From assembly GCF_900129545.1 (NCBI RefSeq), contig NZ_FQWB01000005.1:1-64000 (forward strand): 64,000 bases of DNA, read 5' to 3'. Below are positions 1,134-11,186 of this stretch, one piece after another. Below the pieces are notes generated by a model, which was not told the origin of the DNA, did no database searches, and worked only from the letters and a program-made list of their open reading frames with translations. Positions within the stretch are counted from its first letter, which is position 1. Each line of letters begins with the position of its first letter. Made by a program: the position numbers and the translations under genes. Source of the DNA: Flavobacterium fluvii. Its GTDB lineage: Bacteria; Bacteroidota; Bacteroidia; Flavobacteriales; Flavobacteriaceae.

Positions 1134-1310
1134 CTATTTTTTGTGCTTCTTGATGAGGTATTTGAGTGTCATCGATATAATAAAACTGACAATCGCTCCA
1201 AGAGAAGCCAATATAACAGTTTTTAAAACATCTGCCGAATGTAAATTCGGCAACACACTCAAAAAGGTGCCTCCTGCAGTACCCATCAGGGTATGATTAC
1301 CGGTCGTCAT
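1134..1310 (-). CDS. Small membrane protein, holin-like in shape (58 aa)
   Basis: The minus-strand ATG at 1310 opens a 58-aa frame (MTTGNHTLMGTAGGTF at the start) ending at 1134. It has one hydrophobic helix (about residues 29-47, VLKTVILASLGAIVSFIIS) and a strongly basic C-terminal tail (KYLIKKHKK). It overlaps the end of the upstream 78-aa gene by 14 nt, a pattern of translational coupling. Size, single membrane segment and basic tail resemble phage holins, but small membrane proteins of other functions look the same. It is the last gene of the four-gene minus cassette. Confidence 0.5.
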   Translation of the reverse strand: MTTGNHTLMGTAGGTFLSVLPNLHSADVLKTVILASLGAIVSFIISMTLKYLIKKHKK

Positions 1311-1533
1311 TCTCGTCCTTGGGAAGAATAACCTCCTCAGTTGTTAGTTGGCTAACAGCCGTGACCACTCCACCCGCAACTGCCATATAACCACCAACAG
1401 TAGTCAACACAACTGGCAAAGCGATGGGAGCTGCCAGAATCGTTCCACCAATGGCAGCCATTGCCAATCCAATATTTCGAAGCACTTTAAAAAATTTCGG
1501 GGTTGGAGCTTTTACTCGTTTTATAATATTCAT
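1297..1533 (-). CDS. Small membrane protein of the four-gene cassette (78 aa)
   Basis: The 78-aa product starts with a basic region (MNIIKRVKAPTPKFFKV), followed by a long Gly/Ala/Val-rich hydrophobic stretch (about residues 22-62) able to form two membrane helices with a short turn, and an acidic tail (LPKDENDDR). It follows the DUF5675 gene by 19 nt and overlaps the next small membrane gene by 14 nt, so the set looks co-transcribed. The two-helix hairpin shape fits holin-type or pore-type proteins, but no family is recognised. This is an inference from shape and context only. Confidence 0.55.
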   Translation of the reverse strand: MNIIKRVKAPTPKFFKVLRNIGLAMAAIGGTILAAPIALPVVLTTVGGYMAVAGGVVTAVSQLTTEEVILPKDENDDR

Positions 1534-1552
1534 CTTTTCTCTTTTTTTTCTG

Positions 1553-1969
1553 CTATCCTTCCAAAGTCAGGAATACAGATTGAACAATCAATTCAACACT
1601 TTCTTCTTTGTCCAGGGCTTTGTAAACCAAGTCTTTTAATTTGATAAAAGCTTTTCGAGACATCAGACCCAATCCTGGTTCAGAAAGTTTCGTTACTGGA
1701 GCAATACAGCCTTTCAATTCCCTTTGGGCATTATTGGCAGGATGAAACAAAATCAAGCTTCTGTTTTTTACGTCCAAAACCTCCAAATGCCATTTAAACT
1801 TGTTGCTGTAGCGCTTTTTTATAAAATATTTCCCTTCCGGAATGCAGGAAACCTTCGTTTCGTTTTTCTTCCAAGGCAATTCAATCGTGTTGCAGATATA
1901 TTTGCCCTCGCATTCGAGTTTACCATTGGTTCCATCAGGGAAATAAGTTCTAGATAGCCATAAAACCAT
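1553..1969 (-). CDS. DUF5675 family protein
   Basis: The sequence shows the DUF5675 layout: RTYFPDGTNGKL near the start, an E-L-P-W segment, CIPEGKY, then LFHPANNAQ and KGCIAPV. The His followed about 14 residues later by Gly-Cys resembles the His/Cys arrangement of YkuD-type L,D-transpeptidases, so a cell-wall hydrolase or transpeptidase role is a reasonable inference; the family itself has no settled function. I prefer the ATG at 1969 (138 aa), 1 nt after the upstream stop; an ATG at 1981 would overlap that gene by 11 nt. It lies between a 251-aa unknown protein and two small membrane proteins, an order reminiscent of a phage lysis module. Confidence 0.7.
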   Translation of the reverse strand: MVLWLSRTYFPDGTNGKLECEGKYICNTIELPWKKNETKVSCIPEGKYFIKKRYSNKFKWHLEVLDVKNRSLILFHPANNAQRELKGCIAPVTKLSEPGLGLMSRKAFIKLKDLVYKALDKEESVELIVQSVFLTLEG

Positions 1970-1970
1970 C

Positions 1971-2726
1971 CTACAATCCACTCACCTGAACCAATGCCAA
2001 TGGATTGTAGGCACCATTTTTCAAGGCATACATTTGTCCATTTACTTCTTGGTAAAACTCGACACCCAAAGCCAAAAACAAGGGTTTCGTGCTGTTTGGA
2101 GTCACTGTATTCACCTGATTGATGACAACCGTGGCTATGGCATCCCAAGGTAAAATCGCAGTTTCTGAATGCGCTTCAACAAAAGTTTCAGTTTCAAAAT
2201 CAATTTCGGCACCAGCTGAAATAATTTTGAAATGGGTAGTGCCACTTGGTGCGGCAATCATGTTTGTTGGAACAAACGGATCAATATCAACAGTGATGTC
2301 TCCAGACACACGGTCAATGGCTCCCACATAAGGAGCAAATAAACTGGTGCCCAGTTTCCCCCTGATGTTGAACTCAAAACCGGCCAACAATTCAGCCTCA
2401 CCGTCAATCACGTTTCGTAACCCTCTCACGCTGGTTACGTCCGCCTGAATCACCTCTACCATTTTCTGGGTCAATCGACTCACCATTCTGCCATCGGCAG
2501 TATTCAACAGCAAAGCTCTCAATGCCGTTCTCAAAATCTTGCCGGCTTTCCCGGCTCTGCCAAATTCTGAACCGTTCTCGCGTGTTCTTTGGAACGCAGG
2601 ATCATTCTTGATTCTGTTGGCGTCGATGCCTCCTTTTTCACGAGCTAGATGCCCATCCTGCGTTTTGTAAAAAGTAATATCCCCGATAGTACCTTTCAAT
2701 TTAATTATGCCTTTCTGTCTTGCCAT
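1971..2726 (-). CDS. Hypothetical 251-aa protein, first gene of the minus cassette
   Basis: The product begins MARQKGIIKLKGTIGDITFY, followed by a basic, Arg-rich region (residues 20-75) and a beta-rich, Val/Thr-rich C-terminal half. There is no signal peptide and no membrane helix. I recall similar proteins as unannotated in Flavobacterium genomes but cannot name a family. The basic N-terminus plus beta-rich body would suit a nucleic-acid-contacting or particle structural protein; this is speculative. It is immediately followed by the DUF5675 gene (1-nt gap) and two small membrane proteins, so the four genes look like one functional cassette within the mobile element. Confidence 0.65.
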   Translation of the reverse strand: MARQKGIIKLKGTIGDITFYKTQDGHLAREKGGIDANRIKNDPAFQRTRENGSEFGRAGKAGKILRTALRALLLNTADGRMVSRLTQKMVEVIQADVTSVRGLRNVIDGEAELLAGFEFNIRGKLGTSLFAPYVGAIDRVSGDITVDIDPFVPTNMIAAPSGTTHFKIISAGAEIDFETETFVEAHSETAILPWDAIATVVINQVNTVTPNSTKPLFLALGVEFYQEVNGQMYALKNGAYNPLALVQVSGL

Positions 2727-3024: not shown

Positions 3025-3228
3025 GTGATAGGAAGTAACACTAGGGTATGTATTTATCCCAAAGATGTACAACGTATTACAGGTAAAACATATAGGCAAG
3101 CAAGATTGTATTTGAACAAGGTAAAAGAAAACCTCAACAAAGAGCCACATCAATTAGTTTCCATTGAAGAATTTTGCAGCTTTTCAGGACTACAAATTGA
3201 ACATGTTTTACGTTGTATTGTTGGATAA
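3025..3228 (+). CDS. Small HTH-like protein near the attachment site (67 aa)
   Basis: The 67-aa product (CIYPKDVQRITGKTYRQARL, then EEFCSFSGLQIEHVLR) looks like a compact helix-rich DNA-binding protein: the DVQRITGKTYRQARLYL stretch fits a helix-turn-helix similar to excisionase or MerR-type folds. The GTG at 3025 is the first usable start, because a stop lies three codons upstream in frame. It sits about 220 bp from the tRNA 3' end at 3452-3476, a common place for excisionase or accessory recombination genes. A directionality-factor role is inferred only from position and size. Confidence 0.6.
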   Translation: MIGSNTRVCIYPKDVQRITGKTYRQARLYLNKVKENLNKEPHQLVSIEEFCSFSGLQIEHVLRCIVG

Positions 3229-3451: not shown

Positions 3452-3476
3452 GGTTCGATTCCCGGCGATTCCACCA
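3452..3476 (+). other. tRNA 3'-end fragment, probable attR site
   Basis: The 25 bases read as the 3' end of a tRNA gene: half of the T arm (GG TTCGATT CC), the acceptor-strand half (CGATTCC), discriminator A, and an encoded CCA. The upstream half of the T stem (TTAGG) no longer pairs properly with CCCGG, and no matching 5' acceptor half (GGAATCG) exists within the preceding 150 bases, so this is a fragment, not a tRNA. Tyrosine recombinases commonly leave such a duplicated tRNA 3' end at the distal end of an integrated element. The intact tRNA would then lie left of this window. The isotype cannot be told from this part. Confidence 0.75.
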
Positions 3477-8140: not shown

Positions 8141-8500
8141 ATGAAACATAAAATTGACAATGTAATGGAAACTGGTAAAACAAACAAAACTTATATAAAA
8201 CACTTGATTTCAAGAATAAGCAAAACAGCAACAAAGTATTGTTTTCTTTTTAAAGAAAATGCCGGCTTTCAACTCAGACAGAAATTATGGAGCAAAAAAA
8301 TTCTAGCTATACTGTTTGTGTTGATTTTCACAATTGGCAATTGTATGGTTACGGCACATTACTTGTCCAGTTTTTCATTTGAACTCAAAAATGATATGTT
8401 TTCCTATTTAGCCTTCATCATTCTTTCCATTTTTGCAATAATAATCATAAATGCTAAATGGATAAAAATAGTGGCAGAAAAATATGCCGATAGATTCTAG
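8141..8500 (+). CDS. Hypothetical two-helix membrane protein (119 aa)
   Basis: The 119-aa product has a basic N-terminal 50 residues and two hydrophobic helices (about 53-75, ILAILFVLIFTIGNCMV, and 87-106, FSYLAFIILSIFAIIII), with both ends likely cytoplasmic. No family is recognised. Its upstream region carries the 33-bp element shared with the response-regulator promoters, suggesting control by the neighbouring NarL or LytTR regulator. Downstream lies an IS21-like remnant. Confidence 0.5.
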   Translation: MKHKIDNVMETGKTNKTYIKHLISRISKTATKYCFLFKENAGFQLRQKLWSKKILAILFVLIFTIGNCMVTAHYLSSFSFELKNDMFSYLAFIILSIFAIIIINAKWIKIVAEKYADRF

Positions 8501-8708
8501 AAGACCACTCCATAAACTAGCTAAAGCGTCTCGCTGATGCCAATTGACTTTGGAGATAGCTAAATAACACAAAAAAACAGGAAAGCCGAAAACTCTATCA
8601 AAAAGTAGAATCTATGAGAAAGAAAAGAGGCATAAACAAAGGGTAATTTTTAAGTATATTTGAATACTAATTAACAGATGAAAAAAAGTAGTTTTTAATG
8701 AAAAATGG
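8501..8708. other. Intergenic region left of the IS remnant
   Basis: No intact gene. Short broken frames interrupted by stops could be the decayed end of a transposase-operon gene, but I cannot identify them. Confidence 0.4.
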
Positions 8709-8785
8709 AGGTGGTCATTTTGAATTGGAATCAGGTGGTCACTTTAAATTGGAATTGGGTGGTCAATATCACTTGAATTTGCACA
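8709..8785. mobile_element. Solitary end of an IS21-like element
   Basis: GGTGGTCA recurs at a strict 24-bp period (8710, 8734, 8758), each of the first two followed by AATTGGAAT, and the block ends in TTTGCACA, which reads TGTGCAAA from the other strand. IS21-family elements have TG-starting ends and multiple internal terminal repeats that bind the transposase. No transposase gene remains, so this is a leftover end. The IS21 assignment is from the pattern only. Confidence 0.55.
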
Positions 8786-8807
8786 CATTACCATAAAATA
8801 TGGATTT

Positions 8808-9497
8808 CTATTCTAAAACAAAACTCACGCTTACATTTGCCGTAATCTCTATTTCGCCAATGGCCAATGTTTCTCTTGAAGCTGATTCGTCCATAGCCAT
8901 TGAAGCCTTCATCGCGTATACTCGAGGCTGCGGATGATAGCCTTGTGAATTATCCTGTATCAATAGTGCCTTGCCCACTTTTTGCCCCAATACCGAAACA
9001 AAATCCTCTGCTTTTGCTTTGGCATCTTTAATGGCCAATTTTCGTGCATCGGATTGCAATTGCGCCATTTTGGATGACTTGAATTCTACATTGTCAATTC
9101 GGTTGATTCCTTCATTGACCAATCCTTCCATCAACACGTCATATTTAGACAAATCTCTCAATAAAATCTGTACCGATTGAGTTGCAATATAACTGTATTT
9201 CTTTTTGTCTGCATCATAGTTGGGATTCAAGGAAATGCGTTGGGTCTGAAAATCTTCTGTAGCAATATTCGACTTCTTGATAAATTTCAAGATGGCATCC
9301 ATTTTTTTGTCATTCTCCTGCTTTACATCCGCAGCTTTTGTTCCTTTAGTTTCAATAGAAACGGAAATCGAGGCTTGGTCTGGAGCCACTTTCAGCTTTC
9401 CTTCGCCGGAAACATTAACCATTGGAACTTGTTTTTGGTCTTGCGCATAAGACATTGTCACAAATAAAATGCCCAGAATCAATAGTGCTTTTTTCAT
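8808..9497 (-). CDS. SIMPL domain (DUF541) periplasmic protein
   Basis: The 229-aa product has a signal peptide (MKKALLILGILFVTMSYAQ) and then the SIMPL/DUF541 layout: VNVSGEGKLKVAPDQASISVSIET at the start of the mature part, a conserved middle (ISLNPNYD, QSVQILLRDLSKYDVLM), and ANVSVSFVLE at the end. The family is periplasmic or surface exposed and linked to oxidative-stress tolerance in E. coli (YggE), with no known enzyme activity. It stands beside the rhomboid protease gene on the same strand, 50 nt downstream of it, possibly co-transcribed. Confidence 0.9.
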   Translation of the reverse strand: MKKALLILGILFVTMSYAQDQKQVPMVNVSGEGKLKVAPDQASISVSIETKGTKAADVKQENDKKMDAILKFIKKSNIATEDFQTQRISLNPNYDADKKKYSYIATQSVQILLRDLSKYDVLMEGLVNEGINRIDNVEFKSSKMAQLQSDARKLAIKDAKAKAEDFVSVLGQKVGKALLIQDNSQGYHPQPRVYAMKASMAMDESASRETLAIGEIEITANVSVSFVLE

Positions 9498-9547: not shown

Positions 9548-10189
9548 TTATAGTTTCCCCATTTTGGACATTACAAAAAGTATCACGATGGGAATAGCCA
9601 AAAGCACTACCATAACCGTGTTGTCTACAAACATGGCAGGTTCTTTCAACAAAGTAATCAAATAGCCGCCAATAGCGCCTCCAAAATGAGCCGTATGACC
9701 TATATTGTCGTTCTTGGCTTTCATTCCATAAATGGAATACAACAAATAGCCAATACCAAAAAGATAAGCCGGAATGGGAATGGGAATAAAAAACAAATAC
9801 AAACTCATGCTGGGATCAATCAAAATCGCCGAATATAGAATCCCCGTAACTGCTCCAGATGCTCCAATTGCACGATAACTATAATCGTTTTTGTGCATCA
9901 TCAAAGTGAGTAAACTCCCAAAAACTAGACTAGCCATATAAATCAAGAAAAAAGAAGCACTCCCAAAATAATTGATTACCACGGGAGCAAACATGAAAAG
10001 GGTAAACATGTTGAAAAACAAATGCCCCATATCGGCATGCAAAAAACCCGATGTCACCATTCTTATTTGATCACCGGCACGAATGCTTCCGATGTGAAAT
10101 TCAAATTTCCTAAAAAATGCCACATCTTTAAATCCTTTTAAACTGAATAAAACAGTGACGGCAATAATTACAATTAAAATAGTGCTCAT
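9548..10189 (-). CDS. Rhomboid family intramembrane serine protease
   Basis: The 213-aa protein has six membrane helices, the usual length of a minimal bacterial rhomboid. The catalytic Ser111 sits in GASGAVTG, the His168 in the last helix (HTAHFGG), and the HxxxN motif of helix 2 is H56/N60 (GHLFFN). It cleaves substrates within the inner membrane; the substrate cannot be inferred. It is followed by the SIMPL gene and is divergent from the acyltransferase gene at 10317. Confidence 0.93.
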   Translation of the reverse strand: MSTILIVIIAVTVLFSLKGFKDVAFFRKFEFHIGSIRAGDQIRMVTSGFLHADMGHLFFNMFTLFMFAPVVINYFGSASFFLIYMASLVFGSLLTLMMHKNDYSYRAIGASGAVTGILYSAILIDPSMSLYLFFIPIPIPAYLFGIGYLLYSIYGMKAKNDNIGHTAHFGGAIGGYLITLLKEPAMFVDNTVMVVLLAIPIVILFVMSKMGKL

Positions 10190-10290
10190 AAATTGTTGGC
10201 TAGTTTTTTTAAAGTGTAAATCTAATTAATATAATGCTCATAAAAACAGCTTGCTCTACACAAACTGTCATTCAAAAGCTTTTTTTGAAT

Positions 10291-10298
10291 TATATTTG
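10291..10298 (+). promoter_or_regulatory. -7 box TATATTTG of the acyltransferase gene
   Basis: TATATTTG matches TAnnTTTG and lies 18 nt upstream of the ATG at 10317, the typical spacing in this window. Confidence 0.6.
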
Positions 10299-10316
10299 TG
10301 AAAATATTTTTACCTA

Positions 10317-11186
10317 ATGCGTTTTATAGTTTACCTCATAGCCTACCCCTTTTTATGGTGCATTTCGATGTTGCCGTTTTCATTCTTATACTTGTTTTCA
10401 GATTTTACCTACCTAATCGTTTATTATATAATTGGTTATAGAAAAAAAACGGTTCGAGAAAACTTGGCGATGGCATTACCACATTTATCCGCTGAAGAAA
10501 GATTGACCATCGAAAAAAAATCGTTTCGTCATTTGTGCGACATGTTTCTCGAAATGATAAAAACAATGACCATTTCCAAAAGTGAAATAGAAAAACGTTT
10601 TATTTTTCCCAATATGGAAGTCTATAAAAAACTGGAAGAACAAGACAAAAGTATTGCCATGATGCTGGCACATTATGGGAGCTACGAATGGGTAATTTCG
10701 ATGAATGCTTATGTAAAATTTAGTGCTTTTGCCATTTACAAAAAAATAGCCAATCCTTATTTTGACCAATTAGTTCGTGACATTCGATCCAAATTCAAGG
10801 CTTCACTCGTAACCACCAAAGAAACGATTCCAACCATCATCAACAATAACAAAAGCGGAAAACTGTCCATTTATGGATTTGCAAGCGATCAATCTCCAAA
10901 AATTACTTCTGCTTTTCATTGGCAAAAATTTATGGGAATTGAAGTCCCTGTTCATACCGGTGCCGAGATATTGGCAAAGAAATACAACATGAACATAATT
11001 TTCCTGAAAGTAAAAAAAGTGAAACGCGGTTTTTATGAAGCCCACTTTGAAGTGCTGTGCGAAAATGCCAAGGATGTGCCCAACTACGAAATCACGGATA
11101 AATTCCTGACCTTGGTGGAACAACAAATTTATGAAGCTCCGGAATATTATTTATGGACACATAAACGATGGAAACACAAAAGATAG
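10317..11186 (+). CDS. Lipid A-type lysophospholipid acyltransferase (LpxL/HtrB family)
   Basis: The 289-aa product has an N-terminal membrane segment (FIVYLIAYPFLWCISMLPFS) and the HX4E catalytic motif H119-Y-G-S-Y-E124 (MMLAHYGSYEW), followed by the family blocks ASDQSP and an EVPVHTGAEILAKKY segment. Enzymes of this family add late acyl chains to lipid A or related surface lipids at the inner face of the inner membrane. The acyl donor and exact substrate cannot be told. It is a single-gene unit ending in a shared bidirectional terminator. Confidence 0.92.
   Translation: MRFIVYLIAYPFLWCISMLPFSFLYLFSDFTYLIVYYIIGYRKKTVRENLAMALPHLSAEERLTIEKKSFRHLCDMFLEMIKTMTISKSEIEKRFIFPNMEVYKKLEEQDKSIAMMLAHYGSYEWVISMNAYVKFSAFAIYKKIANPYFDQLVRDIRSKFKASLVTTKETIPTIINNNKSGKLSIYGFASDQSPKITSAFHWQKFMGIEVPVHTGAEILAKKYNMNIIFLKVKKVKRGFYEAHFEVLCENAKDVPNYEITDKFLTLVEQQIYEAPEYYLWTHKRWKHKR

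Follow-up and report, generated by a model that had tools for sequence, protein, structure and literature searches.

By comparing loci we show that a four-gene cassette at the start of a Flavobacterium fluvii contig forms, as far as its sequence can tell, the attachment-site end of a widespread, unnamed family of islands integrated at tRNA or tmRNA genes in Flavobacterium. To explain the arrangement as a whole, we propose that this end is a module made up of a putative wall-opening cassette and a putative leading region, the latter beside a hairpin that may act as a promoter on single-stranded DNA, a reading that we regard as evenly poised between right and wrong.

The cassette and its neighbours

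The window, i.e. the whole stretch of DNA analysed, comprises the first 64,000 nucleotides of the contig. Its relevant features are listed below. Counts refer to 86 loci found with the gene for the 251-aa protein (ORF251), six of them from the window's own genome; contig ends truncate many of these loci, and short ORFs readily escape detection.

1-106, no strand: repeat end common to contig ends C15, C4 and C13, lying between DUF6943 and the structured region
160-582, plus: DUF6943 protein (PF22105, 4e-53), 67/86 loci; candidate leading-region gene
604-783, plus: G59, a 59-aa ORF with a weak DUF7336 match (E=0.02), 32/86 loci
786-1058, plus: 90-aa ORF in the variable slot, absent from all other of the 86 loci
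1066-1093, no strand: GC-rich, terminator-like inverted repeat separating the cassette from the convergent genes, read from the sequence
1134-1310, minus: S58, small hydrophobic protein of 58 aa, 14-nt overlap with S78
1297-1533, minus: S78, small hydrophobic protein of 78 aa after a 19-nt gap, without Pfam, NCBIfam or informative PHROG family
1553-1981, minus: DUF5675 (PF18925, E=1.6e-32; phrog_1501, 3.3e-19)
1971-2726, minus: ORF251, without known family, with a predicted helical N-terminal part and a beta-sandwich C-terminal part
3025-3228, plus: S67, a 67-aa ORF divergent from ORF251, 67/86 loci; weak DUF2089-HTH match in Pfam (E=0.093)
3452-3476, plus: copy of the tmRNA 3' end, the attachment site at the island end

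The tight packing of four genes described in the first-pass annotation is confirmed, all of them being on the minus strand. The DUF5675 ORF is listed from a GTG, and an in-frame ATG at 1969, the likely start, leaves a gap of 1 nt to ORF251.

The repeat in which the window (contig C11) begins also starts contigs C4 and C15 and ends C13. In two copies or more it interrupts the assembly where DUF6943 would meet the structured region, and it is possibly an insertion sequence. Copies of the structured region in this genome are located on contigs C25, C26 and C27; given that C11, C4, C15 and C13 share the repeat end, any of these three may continue the window. The structured region and the promoter hairpin were missed earlier because both are off the window contig.

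Module order and variants

With ORF251 placed on the plus strand, the module reads S67 (minus), then ORF251, DUF5675, S78 and S58 (plus), a variable slot, and G59 and DUF6943 (minus); a conserved non-coding region beyond DUF6943 ends it. The neighbourhood check proposed earlier shows that the cassette genes tend to co-occur, with DUF5675 in 71, S78 in 53 and S58 in 30 of the 86 loci.

When 84,980 species genomes were scanned by pattern, 378 relatives of ORF251 were confirmed, the best 80 of which were kept and come mostly from Flavobacterium. Even samples show the gene in 23 of 41 genomes of Flavobacterium, where a genome can have as many as 9 copies, and in 27 of 296 genomes of the phylum, covering 15 of 139 genera. 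Of the six copies in the window genome, two are near-identical in type (100 and 91%), and the other four have 36-42% identity. One plasmid among 72,556 plasmid records carries ORF251, and it was not found in the viral contigs or phage records searched. A single genome (locus L161) holds two divergent copies side by side, at 8315-9127 and 10058-10813.

The content of the module varies. In more distant genomes the grouping recurs: around lower-identity copies (L129-L141), DUF5675 and the S78 family are found in 5 of 13 regions. Some type-A loci, such as L032-L034, L038 and L142, have S78 and S58 without DUF5675. A second module type combines an ORF251 of about 34-38% identity with an SNase-type gene, a divergent DUF5675, an 87-aa membrane/coiled-coil protein, S78 and DUF6943 (tested by Pfam: SNase PF00565 in one case, PF18925 in two divergent DUF5675 proteins); of ten loci of this type (L146-L155), six have these lysis-type genes and four do not. 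In a third type (L156-L160 and L124) ORF251 occurs without DUF5675 or S78.

Genes in the variable slot are mostly co-oriented with DUF6943 (42 against 7 in 25 loci). This becomes 35 against 7 without locus L086, which supplies 7 of the 42 and whose biosynthetic operon suggests that it is not a true slot. One slot, between cassette and DUF6943 in L036 (6712-8793), contains a reverse transcriptase gene (PF00078, 4.5e-14); others hold defence-like or metal genes, as judged by eye.

Integrative islands

The cassette was said to lie within a mobile element, and this is well supported. A second copy of the tmRNA 3' end lies at 3452-3476, and elsewhere in the window genome the intact tmRNA is followed by a tyrosine integrase (C14:17503-17899); from the latter pair we conclude that the window cassette marks the far end of an ssrA-integrated island. 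Of 36 S67-side flanks, chosen from 102 and aligned, 29 terminate in a tRNA-Ser-type 3' end, 6 in the 3' end of a second tRNA type and one, the window itself, in that of the tmRNA. Both ends were recovered for four islands, in three genomes that are available in long pieces; each island is flanked by tRNA-Ser 3' repeats of 18 bases with no more than 2 mismatches:

G057, 579.5-611.4 kb: complete island, 31.9 kb
G057, 611.4-646.0 kb: complete island, 34.6 kb
G308, 219.5-255.2 kb: complete island, 35.7 kb
G305, 3029.6-3064.8 kb: complete island, 35.2 kb

Both hallmarks of an integrative island with tyrosine integrase, the integrase and the flanking tRNA/tmRNA repeats, are thus present, and in all four complete islands the integrase occupies one end and the module the opposite end. 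A standalone element moved by an adjacent integrase was considered and rejected: the integrase next to S67 is not constant in orientation, and in several loci it is part of the tandem island that follows. tRNA-Tyr was dismissed as attachment site, there being no second copy within 60 kb.

Inside the G308 island, tests identified a block of RteC (PF09357, 5.5e-89), HTH_17, an unnamed 281-aa protein, an AAA protein and a 210-aa protein; look-alikes of the RteC/HTH_17/AAA block were seen by eye in the other three islands. Close to the integrase the cargo includes an AcrB-type pump, an ABC transporter and metal ATPases. Between the replication-like block and the module, 9 of 10 tested proteins match PADLOC defence models (AbiEii, LmuA/LmuB, Ptu, methyltransferase, HerA and PDC types). 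No relaxase or transfer gene was noticed when the island gene lists were read by eye. Bacteroides conjugative transposons with RteC are alike in their RteC and HTH_17 genes and in a common promoter hairpin (see below); the islands differ from them in lacking a recognised transfer operon (in the same lists) and in having a lysis-type cassette at the end.

Adjoining the G308 island we observed a fifth tandem island (L206, G308:C6 193.1-219.5 kb) with an integrase and replication-block-like genes, from which the module is absent. It encodes a phage endolysin (phrog_181, 4.6e-63), a holin (phrog_6384, 7.9e-8), ArdC and unnamed proteins, and is perhaps a provirus of undescribed type; a viral relative of its 185-aa protein was looked for and not found.

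Phage satellites and tycheposons are tRNA-integrated cargo islands as well, and defence cargo is common in phage satellites. It might therefore be argued that a helper phage packages the Flavobacterium islands, with the cassette providing or timing lysis. The similar sizes of the four complete islands (32-36 kb) and the lysis-type genes both fit packaging, the defence cargo agrees with it, and the G308 tandem island combines a phage endolysin and holin with an integrase and a replication-block-like gene. Against this, the islands have no recognised capsid or remodelling genes, no phage structural gene was recognised, searches of phage records and viral contigs did not find ORF251, and the promoter hairpin sits in conjugative elements. 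We consider packaging by a helper phage unlikely, though with a chance that is worth keeping in mind. To our knowledge, neither the structured region nor ORF251 has been described in phage satellites or tycheposons.

ORF251

ORF251 belongs to no ordinary metabolic family in Pfam, NCBIfam or the informative part of PHROG: the first two give no match, and the PHROG match is weak and uninformative. When 17 diverse relatives were scanned singly against the families, none gave a significant match. We presumed by eye a likeness to DUF6266, which Pfam did not show in these 17 members; neither DUF6943 nor DUF6266 was found mentioned in the open-licence PMC literature, where two papers name DUF5675.

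The AF2 model (pLDDT 73.4, pTM 0.66) has a C-terminal beta-sandwich with non-specific matches only. Foldseek (E<=0.001) returned no match in the PDB and a single one among viral models, to an uncharacterised viral protein (8.7e-4) at a TM-score of 0.26. Searches by sequence for solved relatives gave none with E below 0.1, for ORF251 or for DUF5675. The earlier idea that a particle is built from ORF251 was consequently dropped, since no capsid-like fold was matched by the predicted model among viral models or the PDB.

A bacteriocin-like module, in which ORF251 would be the killing protein and the lysis genes would release it, is suggested by a gene order like that of a toxin plus release genes. 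Toxins, however, are typically variable in sequence, whereas the proteins encoded at the 80 best loci are 82-94% identical; moreover, no immunity gene was recognised and solitary ORF251 copies exist. We regard this reading as very improbable.

A predicted wall-opening cassette

The resemblance of DUF5675 to YkuD cell-wall enzymes, first noticed from a His and a Gly-Cys, has gained in weight. The AF2 model (42 sequences; pLDDT 82.4, pTM 0.79) gave 38 VIA-align rows at Z 7.1-8.8, followed by a drop to 3.7. Of these top rows 37 are of L,D-transpeptidase/carboxypeptidase type and one is a fused amidase/peptidase entry; a Z under 8 can mean a common arrangement, and 7 chains reach at least 8. Foldseek, in contrast, found nothing in the PDB at E<=0.001. 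His80 and Gly91-Cys92 are invariant in the 42 aligned sequences, although what we take to be the full YkuD catalytic motif is not matched letter for letter. We therefore predict, on the model, a YkuD (L,D-transpeptidase) fold for DUF5675. Relative to YkuD/L,D-transpeptidase enzymes (YkuD, LdtMt2, DpaA, Pgp2 and Tlde1a, of which we take Pgp2, DpaA and Tlde1a to be names of YkuD-type families), DUF5675 is alike in predicted fold, invariant His and Gly-Cys, and differs in its length of only 142 aa; its enzyme activity is putative. Related sequences are present in 119 phage records. These include a 5-kb microvirus and a crAss-like phage in which a 'putative pholin' lies at a distance of 3 kb.

For the small membrane proteins, the proposed identity as holins is not supported, no PHROG holin family being matched by S78 or S58. 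The best E among PHROG holins for those of the window was 0.23, S58 having weak holin/hemolysin-like matches only (E 0.1-0.23), and two relatives of S78 and one of S58 had no PHROG match at 0.01.

In a divergent copy of the module (L134), the DUF5675 slot is taken by a phage-type endolysin (phrog_9589, 8.8e-23) with CHAP at 4.6e-5, just below the Pfam cut-off; its 149-aa and 184-aa neighbours match no family. This endolysin in the same slot makes lysis likelier, and wall opening is our best guess for the role of the cassette, judging from the predicted fold. Lysis does not seem obligatory, given that some ORF251 copies are without DUF5675 and some without any lysis-type gene.

Alternatively, DUF5675 and the membrane proteins could remodel the wall for a DNA-transfer channel instead of lysing the cell. 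Conjugation systems are known to use wall-cutting enzymes, and the module has the geometry of a leading region next door; on the other hand, no channel genes were recognised in the island gene lists, and in L134 it is an endolysin that replaces DUF5675. Such remodelling appears quite unlikely to us.

The structured region beside DUF6943

The non-coding region adjoining DUF6943 spans about 1.3 kb (1.23-1.58 kb in 29 copies) at a pairwise identity of 51-93%. Across the 29 copies, the folding energy is -462.6 kcal/mol for the ORF251 strand against -393.0 kcal/mol for the other strand, and 63 pairs on the former strand but 31 on the latter show three or more pair types with few breaks; column-shuffled alignments reach -66 to -84 kcal/mol. 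When a structure derived from half of the copies is applied to the other half, 115 and 103 pairs prove to be doubly changed there, compared with 65.5 and 62.9 on average, and at most 79 and 77, in 200 shuffles each (the halves are related sequences, so that the comparison carries no formal probability). An inner domain comprises 25 pairs, 13 of them with double changes in 30 copies, and includes G-U pairs that are near-invariant (29/30 at two pairs). Its model matches 9 of 41 Flavobacterium genomes. Outside the window genome, 13 of the 16 strong matches are within 5 kb of an ORF251 match, and one of the remaining three is on a short contig carrying module genes. In 8 loci, Rfam at gathering scores detected only a tRNA and leaves the structured region unmatched.

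The abstract of PMC12286853 describes GOLLD and ROOL as long structured RNAs in mobile elements, and the region resembles this account in being long, strand-specific, covarying and in mobile elements; it differs in having no Rfam match at gathering scores and a first hairpin that resembles a promoter at the DNA level. One might thus consider the region a giant non-coding RNA of this type made by the islands. The strand asymmetry, the covariation, the near-invariant G-U pairs and the fact that no protein-coding function is evident would suit such an RNA. Single-stranded DNA hairpins yield equal strand asymmetry, however, and the first hairpin contains a T-G pair that is equally invariant (25/26). 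Moreover, the hairpin precedes its own promoter box and would hence not be transcribed from that promoter. On balance we find a giant RNA improbable, though by no means negligible. A giant RNA confined to Flavobacteriaceae was discarded in view of the wider distribution of the first hairpin, which is found in Bacteroides elements and on a Marivirga plasmid downstream of ORF251-DUF5675.

A candidate single-strand promoter

The first hairpin of the structured region has promoter boxes of Bacteroidota type (CTTG, TAnnTTTG) on its 3' arm. In 26 aligned hairpins the most conserved columns are the -7 box and the apex, which reads AATACTACC..GG.TGGAGATTTT. The broad alignment supports a weak consensus fold (-5.69 kcal/mol) with 10 of 20 pairs doubly changed. 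For a count with DNA parameters we omitted matches that were shorter than 95 nt or had little context. Of the 32 hairpins that lie outside modules, 29 carry the -7 box, 24 have it at least 60% paired to the 5' arm and 29 have TTG upstream; the 24 module hairpins show the box in 20, good pairing in 6 and TTG in 14.

Nine plasmid records contain the hairpin (Bacteroides, Parabacteroides, Phocaeicola and one Flavobacterium plasmid), as do 20 viral contigs by exact pattern; on the Marivirga plasmid it lies 1.4 kb downstream of ORF251, behind DUF5675. Across the phylum, the covariance model detects the hairpin in 16 of 296 genomes. For Flavobacterium the figure is 20 of 41, with 44 matches, half of which (22) are within 6 kb of an ORF251 match. 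Several of the gut viral contigs with the hairpin (L214-L232) share a gene of 583-593 aa and one of 207 aa, for which no Pfam family was found (one of each from L216, plus the 592-aa protein of L217). An unverified human faecal phage record (L212, MT836306.1) has two copies of the hairpin, at 116 and 1287.

Of eleven inspected hairpins away from ORF251, 8 have SSB and 9 the DUF932 type to the left on the opposite strand (Pfam was run on 4 SSB and 3 DUF932 proteins); L253 and L256 have neither on the left. Placement before leading genes such as ssb, with the folded strand as template, is accordingly seen in 8 of these 11. To the left of the hairpin, two Bacteroides elements have PcfK/PcfJ/DUF3873 genes and a faecal contig has an ArdC-type gene. 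Among 122 distinct hairpin matches, which are not independent of one another, DUF6943 is on the left in 77. Where it is not, the left gene is on the opposite strand, as the reading expects, in 24 and on the same strand in 13, while 8 matches have no gene that close (1 kb) on the left. On the right there is no uniform pattern, with a minus-strand gene in 49, a plus-strand gene in 27 and none in 46.

Excerpts of two papers on Frpo (PMC9849209, PMC11541004) portray a stem-loop beside ssb in which the promoter boxes are formed by one strand and the transferred strand is the template. Compared with these accounts of Frpo/ssi of the F plasmid, our hairpin shares the one-strand stem-loop, the promoter boxes and the ssb-type leading genes beside it; it differs in that its boxes are of Bacteroidota type and that the fold leaves the box of most module hairpins unpaired, promoter activity being putative. 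In the open-licence PMC literature, matches to Frpo with Bacteroid- were off topic by title, and a single-stranded promoter is not mentioned among the matches listed. We know of no Frpo with the conserved apex given above.

Proposed mechanism

Given the Frpo-like arrangement, we think by analogy that the island may enter cells as single-stranded DNA, with DUF6943, G59 and the variable same-strand cargo of the slot as its putative leading region. Once the island is single-stranded in the recipient, the hairpin would fold and its 3' arm would present the paired promoter boxes. RNA polymerase would then start on the single strand and run toward DUF6943: with the 3'-arm boxes read from loop to base, it would leave the hairpin base onto the 5' flank as template. 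In conjugative elements, transcription from the hairpin would run toward SSB/DUF932. The remainder of the 1.3-kb region could act as a second-strand start or in a related single-strand step. At the other side of the module, DUF5675 (as a predicted YkuD-fold wall enzyme), S78 and S58 would open the host-cell envelope, with ORF251 as the presumed partner protein of the cassette; that the island leaves its host and that the cassette lyses it is what we infer. This explanation is weakened by the poorly paired box of the module hairpins, by the further kilobase that it leaves unexplained and by the fact that no transfer gene was recognised; in addition, DUF5675 or the hairpin is missing from many ORF251 copies. 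Frpo does not account for that kilobase, because the whole structured region holds only one -7-like column.

Early expression from single-stranded DNA has been studied mainly in enterobacterial plasmids. If the hairpin works as we read it, such expression would occur in Bacteroidota too, including gut conjugative elements, and SSB, DUF932, ArdC-type, DUF6943 and slot genes would form a list of anti-defence candidates. A lysis-type cassette, so far a phage trait, would likewise be tied to islands that move defence and efflux/metal genes between environmental bacteria. More tentatively, and with less confidence than in the explanation of the module itself, we suggest that Bacteroidota mobile elements may share unnamed single-stranded DNA promoters and that defence islands may couple an entry switch, a wall-opening exit and a single-strand hub of about 1.3 kb. 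DUF6943 would in that case be a new early-entry, perhaps anti-defence, protein.

A second hairpin motif

A separate hairpin motif of 85 nt with the conserved loop GGAATACTTGGA has 50 matches in 46 loci, almost always in the same orientation. It is located just past the structured region or after further cargo (for instance L142 at 12260; L053 at 13571 and 16785; L126 at 13137 and 15397), and could signal either a cassette boundary or the module's inner edge.
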